39,646 bases of DNA from an uncultured Chloroflexota bacterium (lineage in GTDB: Bacteria > Chloroflexota > Chloroflexia > Chloroflexales > Chloroflexaceae): the NCBI GenBank assembly GCA_937120965.1, contig CAKZKA010000306.1, positions 1 through 39,646 on the forward strand. The letters are read 5' to 3'. The translations under genes and the position numbers were made by a program. Every line of letters starts with the position of its first letter. Positions within the stretch are counted from its first letter, which is position 1. The notes under the pieces were generated by a model that saw nothing but the letters and a program-made list of their open reading frames with translations, was not told the origin of the DNA and did not search any database. Shown here in pieces: positions 29,738-38,395 of this stretch.

Positions 29738-31519
29738 ATGCAAACAGGCACCCTTCTGCGGCGCCACCGTATCGCCGCGCTCATGCTCCTGGCCCTGCTC
29801 GTCCCGCTGATCGCCGCCTGTGGCGGCGCCCCGGCTACCCAGGCTCCCACCACGGCGCCCGCGCCCACGGCTGCGCCGGAGGCGCCCACTGCCGCGCCTG
29901 CGCCCACTGCCGCGCCCACCGAGCCTGCCGCCGAGAGCCAGGCGATCTATACCACCGAGAATGGTCTGATGACCGTTGCCGCCGTCGAGTGCGGCGGTGA
30001 TTATACCGGCCTGCTCAAGGAGATCGCCGCCGTTGACCCGCTCACCGTCCGCTTTACCTTCTGCGTGCCCGACCCGGCCTTCCGCGCCAAGGCCGCTTTT
30101 ACGCCCTTCGCCATTCTGCCGAGCGAGTACCTGGAGAGCACCGGCGGCACCGGCGAGCTGATCGAGCGGCCCATCGGCACCGGCCCCTACCAGGTCGAAA
30201 GCTGGACTCGCGGCGACAACATCACCCTCAAGCGCTTCGATGACTACTGGGGCGAGGCGGCCAAAACCGAGACGCTGATCTTCCGCTGGAGCGCCGAGGC
30301 CGCCCAGCGCCTGCTCGAGTTGCAGTCGGGCACGGTGGACGGCATTGACAACATCGCCCCCGATGCCTTCGAGGTGGTCGCCGCCGACCCGAGCCTGCAA
30401 CTGATCGAGCGCGAGGCCCTCAACGTCTTCTACGTCGGCATGAACAACACCTCGCCGCCGTTCGACAATGAGAAGGTGCGCCAGGCTATCGCCATGGGCA
30501 TTGACCGCCAGCGCATCGTGGACAACTTCTACCCGCCCGGCTCCGAAGTGGCGAGCCACTTCACGCCCTGCGCCATCCCCAACGCTTGTGTCGGCGAGGA
30601 GTGGTACGAGTACAACCCGGAGATGGCCAGGCAGTTGCTCGCCGAGGCCGGCTTCCCCAACGGCTTCGAGACCGTGCTCGAATACCGCGACGTGGTGCGC
30701 GGCTATCTGCCCGAACCGGGCCGCGTGGCCGAGGACATCCAGGCCCAGTTGGCCGAGATCGGCATCAAGGTCACAATCAACGTGATTGAGTCGGGCACGT
30801 TCCTCGATAAGGCCGATGCCGGCGAGTTGAAGGGACTGCACCTGCTGGGCTGGGGCGCCGACTACCCCGATATGACCAACTTCCTCGACTTCCACTTCGG
30901 CGCTGGCGCCTCGAAGCAGTTCGGCGACAAGTTCCCCGATCTGGTCGAGGCCCTGAAGCAGGGCGCCTCGAAGGCCGACGACGCCGAGCGCGAGCCGTTC
31001 TATGTCGAAGCCAACAACCTGATCAAGAAGCACGTGCCCATGGTGCCCATCGCCCACGGCGGCTCGGGCGTGGCCTACAAGGCCGACGTCAAGGGCGCCT
31101 TCGCCAGCCCGCTCGGCAACGAGTACTTCGCCGTGATGGACCCCGGCGGCCGCGACACCTTCGTCTGGATGCAGAACGCCGAGCCGGCCGGCATCTACTG
31201 CGCCGATGAAACCGATGGCGAAGCCCTGCGCGTCTGCGAGCAGGTCACCGAGGGGCTGCTGGCCTATGAGATCGGCGGCACCGAGGTGGTGCCCGGCCTG
31301 GCCGAAGAGTGTACCGCCAACGCCGACCTGACCGTGTGGATCTGCAAGCTCCGCGCGGGCGTGAAGTTCCACGACGGCTCCGAACTCGACGCCAACGACG
31401 TCGTGATGTCGTGGGCCGTGCAGTGGGACGCGGCCAATCCGCTCCACAAAGGGCGCGACGGCAGCTTCACCTACTTCTCGTCGCTCTGGGGCGGCTTCTT
31501 GAACGCACCGGCGGAGTAG
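29738..31519 (+). CDS. ABC importer binding protein, family 5, apparently circularly permuted
   Basis: 593 residues. Residues 1-27 are a lipoprotein signal (LLALLVPLIAACGG); about 28-68 is an Ala/Pro/Thr linker. The rest is a family 5 (peptide/nickel/dipeptide) binding protein but in rotated order. First come the elements usually met after residue ~150: VDPLTVRFTFCVPDPAF, PIGTGPYQVESWTRGDNITL, LQSGTVDGIDNIAPDAF, VRQAIAMGIDRQRIV, LLGWGADYPDMTNFLDFHFG and the end-type KHVPMVPIAHGGSGVAYKAD. After these, from about residue 465, come the normally N-terminal elements: DGEALRVCEQVTEGLLAYE, TEVVPGLAEECT and VKFHDGSELDANDVVMSW (about 541-560). The stop TAG adjoins a type A palindrome. Permease genes follow. 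Confidence 0.88.
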   Translation: MQTGTLLRRHRIAALMLLALLVPLIAACGGAPATQAPTTAPAPTAAPEAPTAAPAPTAAPTEPAAESQAIYTTENGLMTVAAVECGGDYTGLLKEIAAVDPLTVRFTFCVPDPAFRAKAAFTPFAILPSEYLESTGGTGELIERPIGTGPYQVESWTRGDNITLKRFDDYWGEAAKTETLIFRWSAEAAQRLLELQSGTVDGIDNIAPDAFEVVAADPSLQLIEREALNVFYVGMNNTSPPFDNEKVRQAIAMGIDRQRIVDNFYPPGSEVASHFTPCAIPNACVGEEWYEYNPEMARQLLAEAGFPNGFETVLEYRDVVRGYLPEPGRVAEDIQAQLAEIGIKVTINVIESGTFLDKADAGELKGLHLLGWGADYPDMTNFLDFHFGAGASKQFGDKFPDLVEALKQGASKADDAEREPFYVEANNLIKKHVPMVPIAHGGSGVAYKADVKGAFASPLGNEYFAVMDPGGRDTFVWMQNAEPAGIYCADETDGEALRVCEQVTEGLLAYEIGGTEVVPGLAEECTANADLTVWICKLRAGVKFHDGSELDANDVVMSWAVQWDAANPLHKGRDGSFTYFSSLWGGFLNAPAE

Positions 31520-31677: not shown

Positions 31678-32754
31678 ATGCTCCGTTACACCATCCGTCG
31701 TCTGATCGTCGCCGTACCCGTGCTCTTCGGTGTGCTGGCGGTAACCTTCGTGCTGGTGCGCCTGATCCCGGGCGACCCCTGCACGGCCCAGCTTGGCGAG
31801 AAGGCCACCGAGGCGATCTGCGCCCGCTTCAATGCCGAGAAGGGCCTCGACAAGCCCATCCTGGTGCAATTCGGTATCTATATCCGCGACGTGTTCCAGG
31901 GCGATCTGGGCACCTCGATCCGCTTCAACCGCCCCGTCACCCAACTGATTGCCGAGCGTCTGCCGGTCACCCTCGAGCTGGGCTTCTTCGCCCTGCTGCT
32001 GGCCTGCATCGTGGGAGTGCCGCTGGGCATTATCGCCGCGCTGCGCCGCAACTCAGCCATTGACGTGGCGACCATGGTCGGCTCCAATATCGGCGTCTCG
32101 ATGCCGGTCTTCTGGCTCGGCCTCATGCTGGCCTACGTCTTTGCCCTGCTGCTCAAAGACACTCCCTTCCACCTCCCGCCCTCGGGGCGCCTGACGGCCG
32201 GCGTCACCAGCGTGCCGTTCTACGTTGTCTGGGGGTGGAACATCGATCCGAAATCGGGCTTCGGGCAGGTGTTGCAGTTCCTGGCCAACATGTACCTGTT
32301 CAACAGCCTGATCACCTTCCAGTGGGAGGTGTTCCGGGACGCCCTGCGCCACCTGATCCTGCCGGCGATGGCCCTCGGCACCATCCCGATGGCGATCATC
32401 GCCCGGATGACCCGCTCCTCGATGCTGGAGGTGCTCGGGCGCGACTACGTGCGCACCGCCCGGGCCAAGGGCCTGGCCGACTTCGTGGTGACCATTCGCC
32501 ACGCCCTGCGCAACGCCCTGCTGCCGGTGGTGACGATCATCGGCTTGCAGCTTGGCACGATCTTCAGCGGCGCCGTCCTCACCGAGACGATCTTTAACCT
32601 TGCCGGCGTGGGGCGCATTCTCTACGACGCCATTTCTACCCGCGATTATCCAATTATTCAGGGCTTTACCCTGGCGATTGCGTTCAGTTATGTGATGATC
32701 AATTTGCTGGTGGATCTTTCGTATGGGTTTCTGGATCCCCGGATTAGATACTGA
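31678..32754 (+). CDS. ABC importer permease, DppB type
   Basis: 358 residues from ATG 31678 (no obvious ribosome site). First helix MLRYTIRRLIVAVPVLFGVL with the LVRLIPGDPC motif typical of DppB/OppB; GDLGTSIRFNRPVTQLIAERLPVTLEL (split) precedes the membrane domain. The EAA loop that contacts the ATPase is YVRTARAKGLADFVVTIRHALRNALLP (split). A long loop about 160-210 is normal for this family. It forms a heterodimer with the DppC-type permease at 33214. Its TGA stop (32752-32754) lies inside the tag CTGAGGTGAACATATGGGG. Confidence 0.93.
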   Translation: MLRYTIRRLIVAVPVLFGVLAVTFVLVRLIPGDPCTAQLGEKATEAICARFNAEKGLDKPILVQFGIYIRDVFQGDLGTSIRFNRPVTQLIAERLPVTLELGFFALLLACIVGVPLGIIAALRRNSAIDVATMVGSNIGVSMPVFWLGLMLAYVFALLLKDTPFHLPPSGRLTAGVTSVPFYVVWGWNIDPKSGFGQVLQFLANMYLFNSLITFQWEVFRDALRHLILPAMALGTIPMAIIARMTRSSMLEVLGRDYVRTARAKGLADFVVTIRHALRNALLPVVTIIGLQLGTIFSGAVLTETIFNLAGVGRILYDAISTRDYPIIQGFTLAIAFSYVMINLLVDLSYGFLDPRIRY

Positions 32755-33213: not shown

Positions 33214-34158
33214 ATGAGCAGCACCCCGACCGTCAGCAGGCCAGTGACCCTGATCGCCCCCATGCGCCCCGCCGAGGGTCCCTGGCGGCGGGCATGGCGC
33301 CAGTTCATCCGCCAGCGCTCGGCGATCATCGGCATGGCGATCATCGGCGTGCTGGTCTTCACCGCCGTCTTCGCCCCCTGGATCGCGCCCTACGACCCGA
33401 TCGAGGTGCTGCTGGGCAAGGAGGAGGGCATCCAGAAGCGCTCCGGGCCGTGTATCCATCTCCTGGGCTGCCCGCCCGACCGGCCCCAGCACCTGATGGG
33501 TGTGGACGGGAACTTCCGCGACCTCTTCAGCCGCGTGATCTACGGCGCGCGGCTGTCGCTGTTCATCGGCTTTGTGACAGTGTCAATCTCGGTGGCCATC
33601 GGGGTGCTGCTGGGAGCGGTGGCGGGCTTCGTCGGCGGCTGGGTTGACAACCTGATCATGCGCGTGCTCGATGTGGTGCTGGCCTTTCCCTTTTTGCTGC
33701 TCGCCATCGCCATCGTGAGCGTACTCGGCCCTGGCCTGCTCAACGCCATGCTCGGCATCGCCATCGTCTCCATCCCCGCCTACGCGCGGGTGATCCGCGC
33801 CAGTGTGCTCTCGGCGCGCGAGGAGGAGTACGTGCTGGCCGCGCGCACCATCGGCCTCGGACCACTGGCGATCCTCTCCAGACACGTCCTGCCCAACGCC
33901 ATTTCCCCGCTGATCGTGCAGGCCACACTGGGCATCGGCACGGCAATCATCGAGGTGGCGGCGCTCTCCTTCCTCGGCCTCGGGGCGCAACCCCCCACCC
34001 CCGAATGGGGCTCCATGCTCAGCGCCGAGCGCAACCAGGTCTTCACGGCTCCGCACCTGGTCTTCTTCCCCGGCCTGGCGATTATGCTGACGGTGCTGGG
34101 CTTTAACCTGCTCGGCGACGGCCTGCGCGATGCCCTCGACCCGCGGTTGAAGCTCTGA
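33214..34158 (+). CDS. ABC importer permease, DppC type
   Basis: 314 residues. N-terminal RRAWRQFIRQRSAIIGMAII and VFAPWIAPYDPIEV match the OppC/DppC N-terminal region; HLMGVDGNFRDLFSRVIYGARLSL (split) is the usual start of the membrane domain. The EAA loop is YVLAARTIGLGPLAILSRHVLPNAISP (split). ALSFLGLGAQPPTPEWGSML and GFNLLGDGLRDALDPRL are C-terminal signatures. It pairs with the permease at 31678 and the binding protein at 29738. No ATPase genes (DppD/DppF) follow in the window, so they are elsewhere. Confidence 0.94.
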   Translation: MSSTPTVSRPVTLIAPMRPAEGPWRRAWRQFIRQRSAIIGMAIIGVLVFTAVFAPWIAPYDPIEVLLGKEEGIQKRSGPCIHLLGCPPDRPQHLMGVDGNFRDLFSRVIYGARLSLFIGFVTVSISVAIGVLLGAVAGFVGGWVDNLIMRVLDVVLAFPFLLLAIAIVSVLGPGLLNAMLGIAIVSIPAYARVIRASVLSAREEEYVLAARTIGLGPLAILSRHVLPNAISPLIVQATLGIGTAIIEVAALSFLGLGAQPPTPEWGSMLSAERNQVFTAPHLVFFPGLAIMLTVLGFNLLGDGLRDALDPRLKL

Positions 34159-36587: not shown

Positions 36588-36797
36588 AGTTCTCCTGACC
36601 CCTCCCCCGGACCTTAGGAAAGAATAGAGCATTTGAGCTATCTGTGCCACTGCCCCGAGAGTACTCCGCGCCGAAGCGCATCTGGGCGCTTCGCGCGATA
36701 ATCTGCAATCCAGGATCTCTAATCTGAAACAGGCATCGAATGCTGGTTCCACTGCCGTCACATCGCGTTGCTATTATGCAGCGGAGTTGATGGCTTG

Positions 36798-37313
36798 ATG
36801 TTCGCCCTCGACGGCCACCCCTGGCGGGTGATCGCCCGCGCCACACGTGGCGACGAGCACCCCTGGGCCGGCGCGGCAAGCTACGAGGAGCTGGCCGCGC
36901 TCCTGCTCGAACGCCCGGGCAGTTTGCCCTCGCGCTGGGATCTGAGCTTCAGCTCCCCCGTCACCTTCCGGCGGCGGGGGATGAACATGCCATTGCCGCT
37001 CCCGGAACTGGTCTTCGGGAGCCTGCTCGACAAATGGAACGCCTTCGCGCCCCTGGCGCTCCCCGATGAAGCGCGTCGCTACGCCGAAGAATGCCTGGCC
37101 ATCAGCCGCTACGACCTGCGAACCGTCGCCAGCCCGACCAGCGGCGGCGCATTGCAGATCGGCGCGGTGGGGCGGTGCAGCTACATCGCCACCACCGGCG
37201 ATCGCTACTGGCGGGCAGTCGTCACCACCCTGGCGCGGCTGGCCTTCTACAGCGGGGTGGGCGCGGGCGCCACACGCGGCTTTGGCCAGGCCCGGCTGAT
37301 CGAACCGCGCTAA
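36798..37313 (+). pseudogene. cas6: Cas6 endoribonuclease, N-terminus missing
   Basis: The reading frame gives about 171 residues (TTG 36768 would add ten). It is the C-terminal two-thirds of a Cas6/RAMP protein: WDLSFSSPVTFRRRGMNMPL, PELVFGSLLDKWNAFAP, RYAEECLAISRYDLRTVAS, and the glycine-rich end FYSGVGAGATRGFGQARLI that contacts the crRNA repeat. Cas6 proteins usually have about 240-270 residues; the N-terminal ferredoxin-like domain, where a catalytic His often lies, is absent, and upstream DNA does not encode it in any obvious frame. It would process CRISPR transcripts if whole. cas1 starts 62 bases later. Confidence 0.78.
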
Positions 37314-37375
37314 CGGCTCGCCCGGAAGGGATGCGCAGGATACTCGCTTCGTCATACTCGCCACGCACCACCACC

Positions 37376-38395
37376 ATGGCAACCCTCTACCTCATCGAAC
37401 AGGGCGCAATGCTCCACTGCGACGGCAAACGACTCGAAGTTCGTCGCGAAGGTGAGGTCATCGGCAGCGCGCCCCTGGTAAAGATCCACGACATCGTCGT
37501 CTTCGGCAACATCGGCCTGAGCACCCCGGCGATCAAACGCCTGCTCGAACGCAACATTGACGTTGTGTTCCTGACCCTCGACGGCCACTACCACGGGCGG
37601 CTGGTGGGCGAAATGAGCGCCCACGTCGCCCTGCGGCAGGCCCAGTACGCCCGCACCGGCGACGCCGAGAGGAGCCTCCGGCAAGCCCGGCAGATCGTCG
37701 AAGGCAAACTACGCAACCAGCGCGCGGTCCTCCAGCGTTTCAACCGGAACCGCGCCTCTGCTCCCGACGAACTTACAACCATCATTGATGAAACCGAACG
37801 CAACCTGCGCCGCGTCAGCCGCACCACGCGGCTGCACGCCCTGCTGGGCCTCGAAGGCAGCGCCACCGCGCGCTACTTCAGCGGCGTGCGCGCCCTCATC
37901 GGCCCCGAATGGCGTTTCAACAGCCGCCAGCGTCGTCCGCCGCCCGATCCGGTGAACGTACTCCTCTCACTGGGCTACACCCTGCTGGCCCACAAAGCCC
38001 TCGGCGCGGTGCAGGCCGCCGGGTTCGACCCCTACCTCGGCATCCTGCACCAGTACGCCTACAAACACCCATCGCTGGCGCTCGACCTGATGGAAGAGTT
38101 CCGGCCCATCCTGGTCGACTCACTGGTCATCCGCCTGTGCAACGACGGGCGGATCACCCTCGACGACTTCACCCCGGGCGACGAAGCGCGCCCGGTGGTC
38201 CTGAGCGATGACGGCATGCGCCGCTTCCTGGCCGCCTTCGAGGAACGCATGCGCACCGAAGCCACCCATCCCGAAGGCAGCGACAGCGGACCGGGGAAGG
38301 TCAGCTACCTGCGCTGTCTGGAACTCCAGGCGCGCCGGCTTGCGCGGGTCGTGCGCGGCGAGACCGACCTCTACGAACCCTTCAGCGCGCGCTGA
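37376..38395 (+). CDS. cas1: CRISPR-associated endonuclease Cas1
   Basis: 339 residues, the metal-dependent integrase that inserts new spacers together with Cas2. N-terminal beta domain: MATLYLIEQGAMLHCDGKRL, VVFGNIGLSTPAIKRLLERN. The C-terminal helical domain has the metal-binding residues: Glu in LLGLEGSATARYF (about 161), His in GILHQYAYKHPSLALDL (about 226) and Glu/Asp in DLMEEFRPILVDSLV. Full length for type I-B/III-associated Cas1. ATG 37376 begins the conserved domain; an in-frame ATG at 37331 would add 15 residues. No strong ribosome site. Confidence 0.96.
   Translation: MATLYLIEQGAMLHCDGKRLEVRREGEVIGSAPLVKIHDIVVFGNIGLSTPAIKRLLERNIDVVFLTLDGHYHGRLVGEMSAHVALRQAQYARTGDAERSLRQARQIVEGKLRNQRAVLQRFNRNRASAPDELTTIIDETERNLRRVSRTTRLHALLGLEGSATARYFSGVRALIGPEWRFNSRQRRPPPDPVNVLLSLGYTLLAHKALGAVQAAGFDPYLGILHQYAYKHPSLALDLMEEFRPILVDSLVIRLCNDGRITLDDFTPGDEARPVVLSDDGMRRFLAAFEERMRTEATHPEGSDSGPGKVSYLRCLELQARRLARVVRGETDLYEPFSAR

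Follow-up and report, generated by a model that had tools for sequence, protein, structure and literature searches.

A circularly permuted, DppA-like family 5 substrate-binding lipoprotein of Chloroflexota and Acidimicrobiia, with a probable second permutation in Thermoflexales

DppA of Escherichia coli (1dpp/1dpe) belongs to the dipeptide branch of the family 5 substrate-binding proteins (cluster C) and salt-bridges both ends of the dipeptide, R355 binding the carboxylate and D408 the amino group; reversing the charge of both residues abolishes dipeptide binding and uptake (PMC12136057). Among binding proteins, the titles and abstracts of the open-access literature yield a single natural circular permutant, Tp0684 (TpMglB-2) of Treponema pallidum, a cluster B protein that has been termed 'Type Ic' or 'Cluster Bc' (PMC4990184). 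For family 5 itself these titles and abstracts describe no natural permutant, in keeping with an earlier note on the DNA presented here, which was not aware of one in this family; subscription papers may hold a description. Since a permutant is known in cluster B and that literature yields none for family 5, the proteins discussed below are filed as a circularly permuted family 5 subfamily. Like Tp0684, they are natural permutants of an ABC transporter binding protein, with an N-terminal tether and with the first strands moved to the C-terminus (PMC4990184). Unlike them, Tp0684 is a glucose-binding cluster B protein whose moved part is of low similarity, with a reported identity of 13% (PMC4990184), and a single permutation has been described for it, as against two in the family 5 clade.

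The window, that is the whole stretch of 39,646 nt that was analysed, derives from an uncultured member of the Chloroflexaceae and encodes one such protein. The block that normally comes first is here called N and is followed by A and then B, so that the standard order is N-A-B and that of the window gene is A-B-N. The gene, its parts and the permease genes downstream are as follows:

29738-31519, plus strand: gene of a circularly permuted family 5 substrate-binding lipoprotein, order A-B-N, 593 aa (open reading frame, PF00496, phmmer, block profiles)
29738-29818, plus strand: lipoprotein signal peptide, residues 1-27, lipobox I-A-A-C with Cys28 (direct sequence reading)
29819-29947, plus strand: linker rich in Ala, Pro and Thr, residues 28-70 (sequence reading)
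29999-30457, plus strand: segment A, residues 88-240, approximately DppA 119-265 (phmmer, block profiles)
30458-31135, plus strand: segment B, residues 241-466, the C-terminal lobe and the return to lobe I, approximately DppA 266-502 (phmmer, profiles, structure alignment)
30698-30700, plus strand: Arg321, equivalent to mature DppA Arg355 (precursor R383; alignment to DppA)
30860-30862, plus strand: Asp375, equivalent to mature DppA Asp408 (precursor D436; alignment to DppA)
31124-31153, plus strand: new join of the native C-terminus to the native N-terminus, residues 463-472 (EYFAVMDPGG), by comparison with the free ends of standard-order relatives
31145-31486, plus strand: segment N, residues ~470-583, the normally N-terminal block in C-terminal position (phmmer, residues 506-583 matching DppA 35-118; profiles)
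31678-32754, plus strand: DppB-type permease, the next gene downstream (homology; scoop E41-K42 against E41-R42 of E. coli DppB)
33214-34158, plus strand: DppC/GsiD-type permease (homology)

Compared with E. coli DppA (1dpe), the window protein gives two non-overlapping phmmer matches in exchanged order, residues 91-465 corresponding to DppA 122-502 (170.1 bits) and the N-block match scoring 43.9 bits (i-Evalue 1.3e-10), and it departs from the canonical N-A-B order. PF00496 is its sole significant Pfam family (280.4 bits; cut-off 32.4) and matches in two stretches, the strongest covering residues 91-392; the protein is not of the cluster B sugar-binding kind, and with the DppA equivalog model NF043070 it scores 228.3 bits, below the curated cut-off of 1005. 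Annotation by profiles conceals the permutation, for it records the gene as a family 5 member like any other. Neither the window ORF nor any other ORF scanned with the block profiles contains a duplicated N, A or B block. On the strength of its sequence, the window protein appears best described as a DppA-like circular permutant of family 5, in which two homologous parts are exchanged and none is duplicated or missing. The earlier note had read the block order as reversed and the protein as complete with nothing duplicated, and both readings are borne out, the former by phmmer and the block profiles and the latter by the presence of each block once in the ORF. Its further claim that this amounts to circular permutation is supported by the swapped blocks, the short B-to-N join, the intact ORF with its signal peptide and the distribution of the permuted genes as one clade across two phyla.

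The ATG start of the ORF lies two codons past an in-frame stop. The lipobox is recognisable in 86 of the 100 A-B-N relatives, several of the remainder being 5'-truncated, and the median distance from lipobox to core is 48 aa. At the new join the native C-terminus (...PLGNEYFAVM) runs on into the native N-terminus (DTFVWMQNAEP...) through a linker of few residues, about half a dozen; in standard relatives both of these are free ends. The permuted proteins are like DppA in their homology over both blocks, their predicted two-lobed fold, the retained ligand residues Arg355 and Asp408 and the adjoining DppB/DppC-type permease genes. They are unlike DppA, which is N-A-B, in being ordered A-B-N or B-N-A, in placing the lipoprotein tether at a different point of the fold and in having two additional cysteines at the new N-terminus. 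Standard-order paralogs of this family (e.g. loci L082-L089, L099-L112 and L142-L149) are encoded in the same and in related genomes; they share 25-42% core identity and often lie upstream of DppB, but are N-A-B and without a cysteine pair at the start of A.

Block profiles derived from relatives, one each for N, A and B, were run on all long ORFs of every locus. The first scan found 97 A-B-N, 33 N-A-B and 1 B-N-A ORFs, with N-A-B order confined to the more distant paralogs, and the distinct permuted genes number 102 (100 A-B-N, 2 B-N-A), spread over Chloroflexota and Acidimicrobiia. The earlier note had proposed a search for homologues of the same order in other Chloroflexota; these were found, the permuted N block being present in 36 of 301 sampled Chloroflexota genomes at no less than 46% identity to that of the window. 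Among genomes of the class of Ilumatobacter nonamiensis (Acidimicrobiia), 15 of 148 have the permuted gene. The gene is patchily distributed within the family of the window genome itself, where one genus (g1) and part of a second (g2) are positive and a third (g3) is negative.

A tree was computed from an alignment in which N, A and B had been put into a common order, and E. coli DppA served as the outgroup. Every permuted gene falls into a single clade (100/100), which is present in 100% of bootstrap trees and sits on a long stem of 0.94 changes per site, and the standard-order genes all fall outside it. A single origin of the A-B-N permutation is thereby shown.

Acidimicrobiia copies (L042, L047, L050, L061, L079, L152, L155 and L157) occupy at least two places inside the Chloroflexota tree, which suggests more than one transfer of the permuted gene between Chloroflexota and Actinomycetota. 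A third phylum, indicated by the label 'Acidobacteria' on L072, was rejected, as the genomes around that of L072 are shared with the Acidimicrobiia set. One genome carries, besides a typical copy, a second and strongly diverged A-B-N copy with 37% identity (L114, G104:C23).

Two genes from Thermoflexales, the first of which stood out by match pieces in an unexpected order, are arranged B-N-A:

1866-3605 of L078, Thermoflexales MAG: B-N-A gene, complete ORF that starts with a signal peptide of its own and is followed by DppB
1167-2927 of L138 (G307), Thermoflexales: B-N-A gene, 89% identity over residues 1-579 of the L078 protein

As the arrangement recurs in G307, the order in L078 is not an assembly error. 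The cut site lies near the lobe crossover. The closest relative of the B-N-A genes is the A-B-N gene of G304, the three grouping at 99/92, and a topology that keeps all A-B-N genes together to the exclusion of B-N-A is rejected by the AU test (p 0.0148). The B-N-A genes thus nest within the A-B-N clade and most likely derive from an A-B-N gene that was permuted again.

The re-formed join of the B-N-A proteins carries what looks like a scar. A-B-N proteins have one cysteine near the new N-terminus and a second ~24 residues on (APDCDYGG ... FTLC), represented in the window protein by C85 and C109, which flank the start of segment A. This pair is present in 93 of 95 A-B-N proteins and in both B-N-A proteins, as against none of 33 N-A-B proteins. 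In B-N-A the stretch with the pair is internal, at the re-formed N-to-A join. Ahead of it stands PPATATDTKYEAP, similar to the Pro/Ala/Thr linker found behind the signal peptide of A-B-N lipoproteins. Permutation by duplication is a standard model (PMC3320104), and two A-B-N copies fused in tandem with loss of the outer pieces would leave the cysteine pair and the linker inside a B-N-A chain. The pair and the linker-like insert thus look like the remnant expected from serial permutation by duplication, and in-frame tandem duplication followed by trimming is the likely route of permutation.

The fold of both permutants was modelled with AlphaFold2. The A-B-N model, computed from window residues 72-593 with 64 relatives, has a mean pLDDT of 93.9 and a pTM of 0.91, and its residues 18-399 (A+B) superimpose on residues 120-507 of 1dpp with a Z score of 31.5 and 1.8 Å over 381 residues; the N block is absent from this alignment because structure aligners are sequential. 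The B-N-A model was computed from a separate alignment that used the N-A pieces of standard-order relatives (pLDDT 91.5, pTM 0.88), and its residues 242-517 (N+A) match 1dpp 1-266 with a Z score of 28.2 and 1.6 Å over 254 residues, so that the two partial superpositions, from two permuted chains, jointly span the whole DppA fold. Had the 121-residue N block not been confidently placed, a pTM as high as 0.91 would hardly be expected, and the predicted position of this block in the A-B-N model rests on that value and on the model of the second permutant. The permuted protein is accordingly modelled as keeping the usual two-lobed clamp. The possibility raised in the earlier note that the C-terminal ~130 residues form a separate domain, rather than completing lobe I, is argued against by the pTM and indirectly by the B-N-A model.

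A DppB gene directly follows 93 of the 102 distinct permuted genes (91/100 A-B-N, 2/2 B-N-A). The DppB scoop, formed in E. coli by E41 and R42 and contacting DppA R383 and D436, reads E-K or E-R in 100 of 102 A-B-N loci. The equivalents of R355 and D408 (R321 and D375) are invariant in all 65 aligned permuted proteins; they are also found in most standard-order relatives, and therefore these residues do not single out one ligand. On the simplest reading, the window protein is probably a working subunit of a dipeptide-type importer.

Several A-B-N proteins have become two-headed lipoproteins through N-terminal fusion, according to Pfam, to Peripla_BP_6 (L005, L008 and L117) or to SBP_bac_3 (L015, L019, L023, L045 and L115). 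A further protein, L116, has ~400 additional N-terminal residues without a Pfam match. In L141 (409-3666, G301), caspase (Peptidase_C14), HEAT-like and FHA domains and a hydrophobic stretch stand ahead of the permuted binding domain, and the protein is possibly a membrane receptor with a cytoplasmic caspase-like part. Such architectures suggest, without demonstrating it, that the relocated N-terminus lends itself to N-terminal attachments; a comparable idea on tethering was put forward by those who solved the Tp0684 structure (PMC4990184).

Other explanations of the swapped order and of its use have to be weighed against these data. The window assembly is a draft of 307 contigs and most relatives are MAGs, so a misassembly, a chimeric contig or frameshifted tandem genes might in principle mimic a swap; this has a negligible chance of being correct, as the order is common to independent genomes, being colinear over residues 1-593 in two genomes of the same genus (G190 with 94% and G222 with 93% identity), recurring in the 97 loci of the first scan and occurring in single-contig genomes (L068, CP075367.1; G208; G005), while the blocks are never duplicated and the permuted genes sit together on a single long branch with full support. 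Misassembly, which the earlier note had named as the finding that would overturn its reading, is thereby excluded. A domain-swapped oligomer, in which each relocated N block would fill out lobe I of its partner chain and make a dimer the working unit, draws on the altered connectivity and on the blindness of monomer prediction to intermolecular arrangements, but it is very improbable given that the B-N join is only a few residues long, that the monomer pTM implies confident placement within one chain and that Tp0684, another permuted binding protein, is consistent with a monomer (PMC4990184).

The route and the role of the permutation also admit of other readings. By fission and fusion, for which a general model exists (PMC3320104), the N block and the A-B part would once have been separate genes and been rejoined in opposite order, and it speaks for this that no tandem or half-duplicated intermediate of A, B and N was found among all ORFs scanned. 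It is nevertheless unlikely, as the 301 Chloroflexota genomes hold no convincing free-standing N-block gene, the N-block matches lying in ORFs of at least 477 aa with one exception, and as the linker-like remnant and the A-B-N-specific cysteines inside B-N-A accord with a secreted lipoprotein gene that was duplicated and then trimmed. The exception is a match in a 173-aa open frame (G163:C35:57725-58009), a candidate for a free N block, a pseudogene or a frameshift. The fusions described above speak for a different role, in which the permuted protein would act chiefly as a sensor or adaptor and not as part of a transporter, its rearrangement having freed the N-terminus for further domains. Yet this too is improbable, and somewhat more so than fission and fusion, since the window protein, like most of its relatives, is a simple lipoprotein encoded immediately upstream of DppB and the scoop residues of DppB are retained.

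Taken together, the gene very probably encodes a permuted DppA homologue that serves as a subunit of a DppBC-type importer, with one origin of the permutation and a second permutation in Thermoflexales. It is proposed that the protein is a membrane-tethered substrate-binding protein in which the native C-terminus became joined through a few residues to the native N-terminus, the chain being reopened inside the normally N-terminal part, between DppA residues ~118 and 122. The clamp would probably capture a dipeptide or a similar ligand with an alpha-amino and an alpha-carboxylate group between its lobes and pass it on to DppBC. The A-B-N order would have arisen once in a lineage spread over Chloroflexota and then have been passed to Acidimicrobiia, and in Thermoflexales the already permuted gene would have been permuted again, by duplication and trimming, to B-N-A. 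A more tentative reading, given slightly less than an even chance, sees in the two-phyla clade the ancient event of a serial permutation, in whose second event, still marked by a scar, the permuted chain was opened anew close to the lobe crossover (~DppA residue 266), leaving one lobe-to-lobe strand no longer covalent in a working clamp; the moved N-terminus may have been selected for easier tethering or sensor-domain fusion.

The permuted clade is a genuine new topological variant of family 5, and the serial second permutation is its most unusual part; that the family is widespread and that a second permutation exists both go beyond the earlier note. A large, two-lobed binding protein of the peptide class has tolerated a changed chain order, which lineages have kept and which has changed twice in succession, and it thus provides a natural experiment in which the chain is rewired and the shape, as predicted, retained. 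With the living series N-A-B, A-B-N and B-N-A and the sequence scar left where N and A were rejoined, two things become directly testable: the duplication model of permutation and the part that hinge connectivity plays in binding proteins of the clamp type. Natural permutants are also useful starting points for biosensor design.

Between 28821 and 34846 of the window, a 29-nt palindromic intergenic repeat with the core GGGGAAACCCGGTTTCCCC occurs in ten copies, one of which overlaps the stop codon of the permuted gene, and a 35-nt GC-rich palindrome occurs in seven copies. Further downstream (36768-38395), CRISPR genes are recognised by Pfam, Cas6 at 36768-37313 and Cas1 within 37091-38395.
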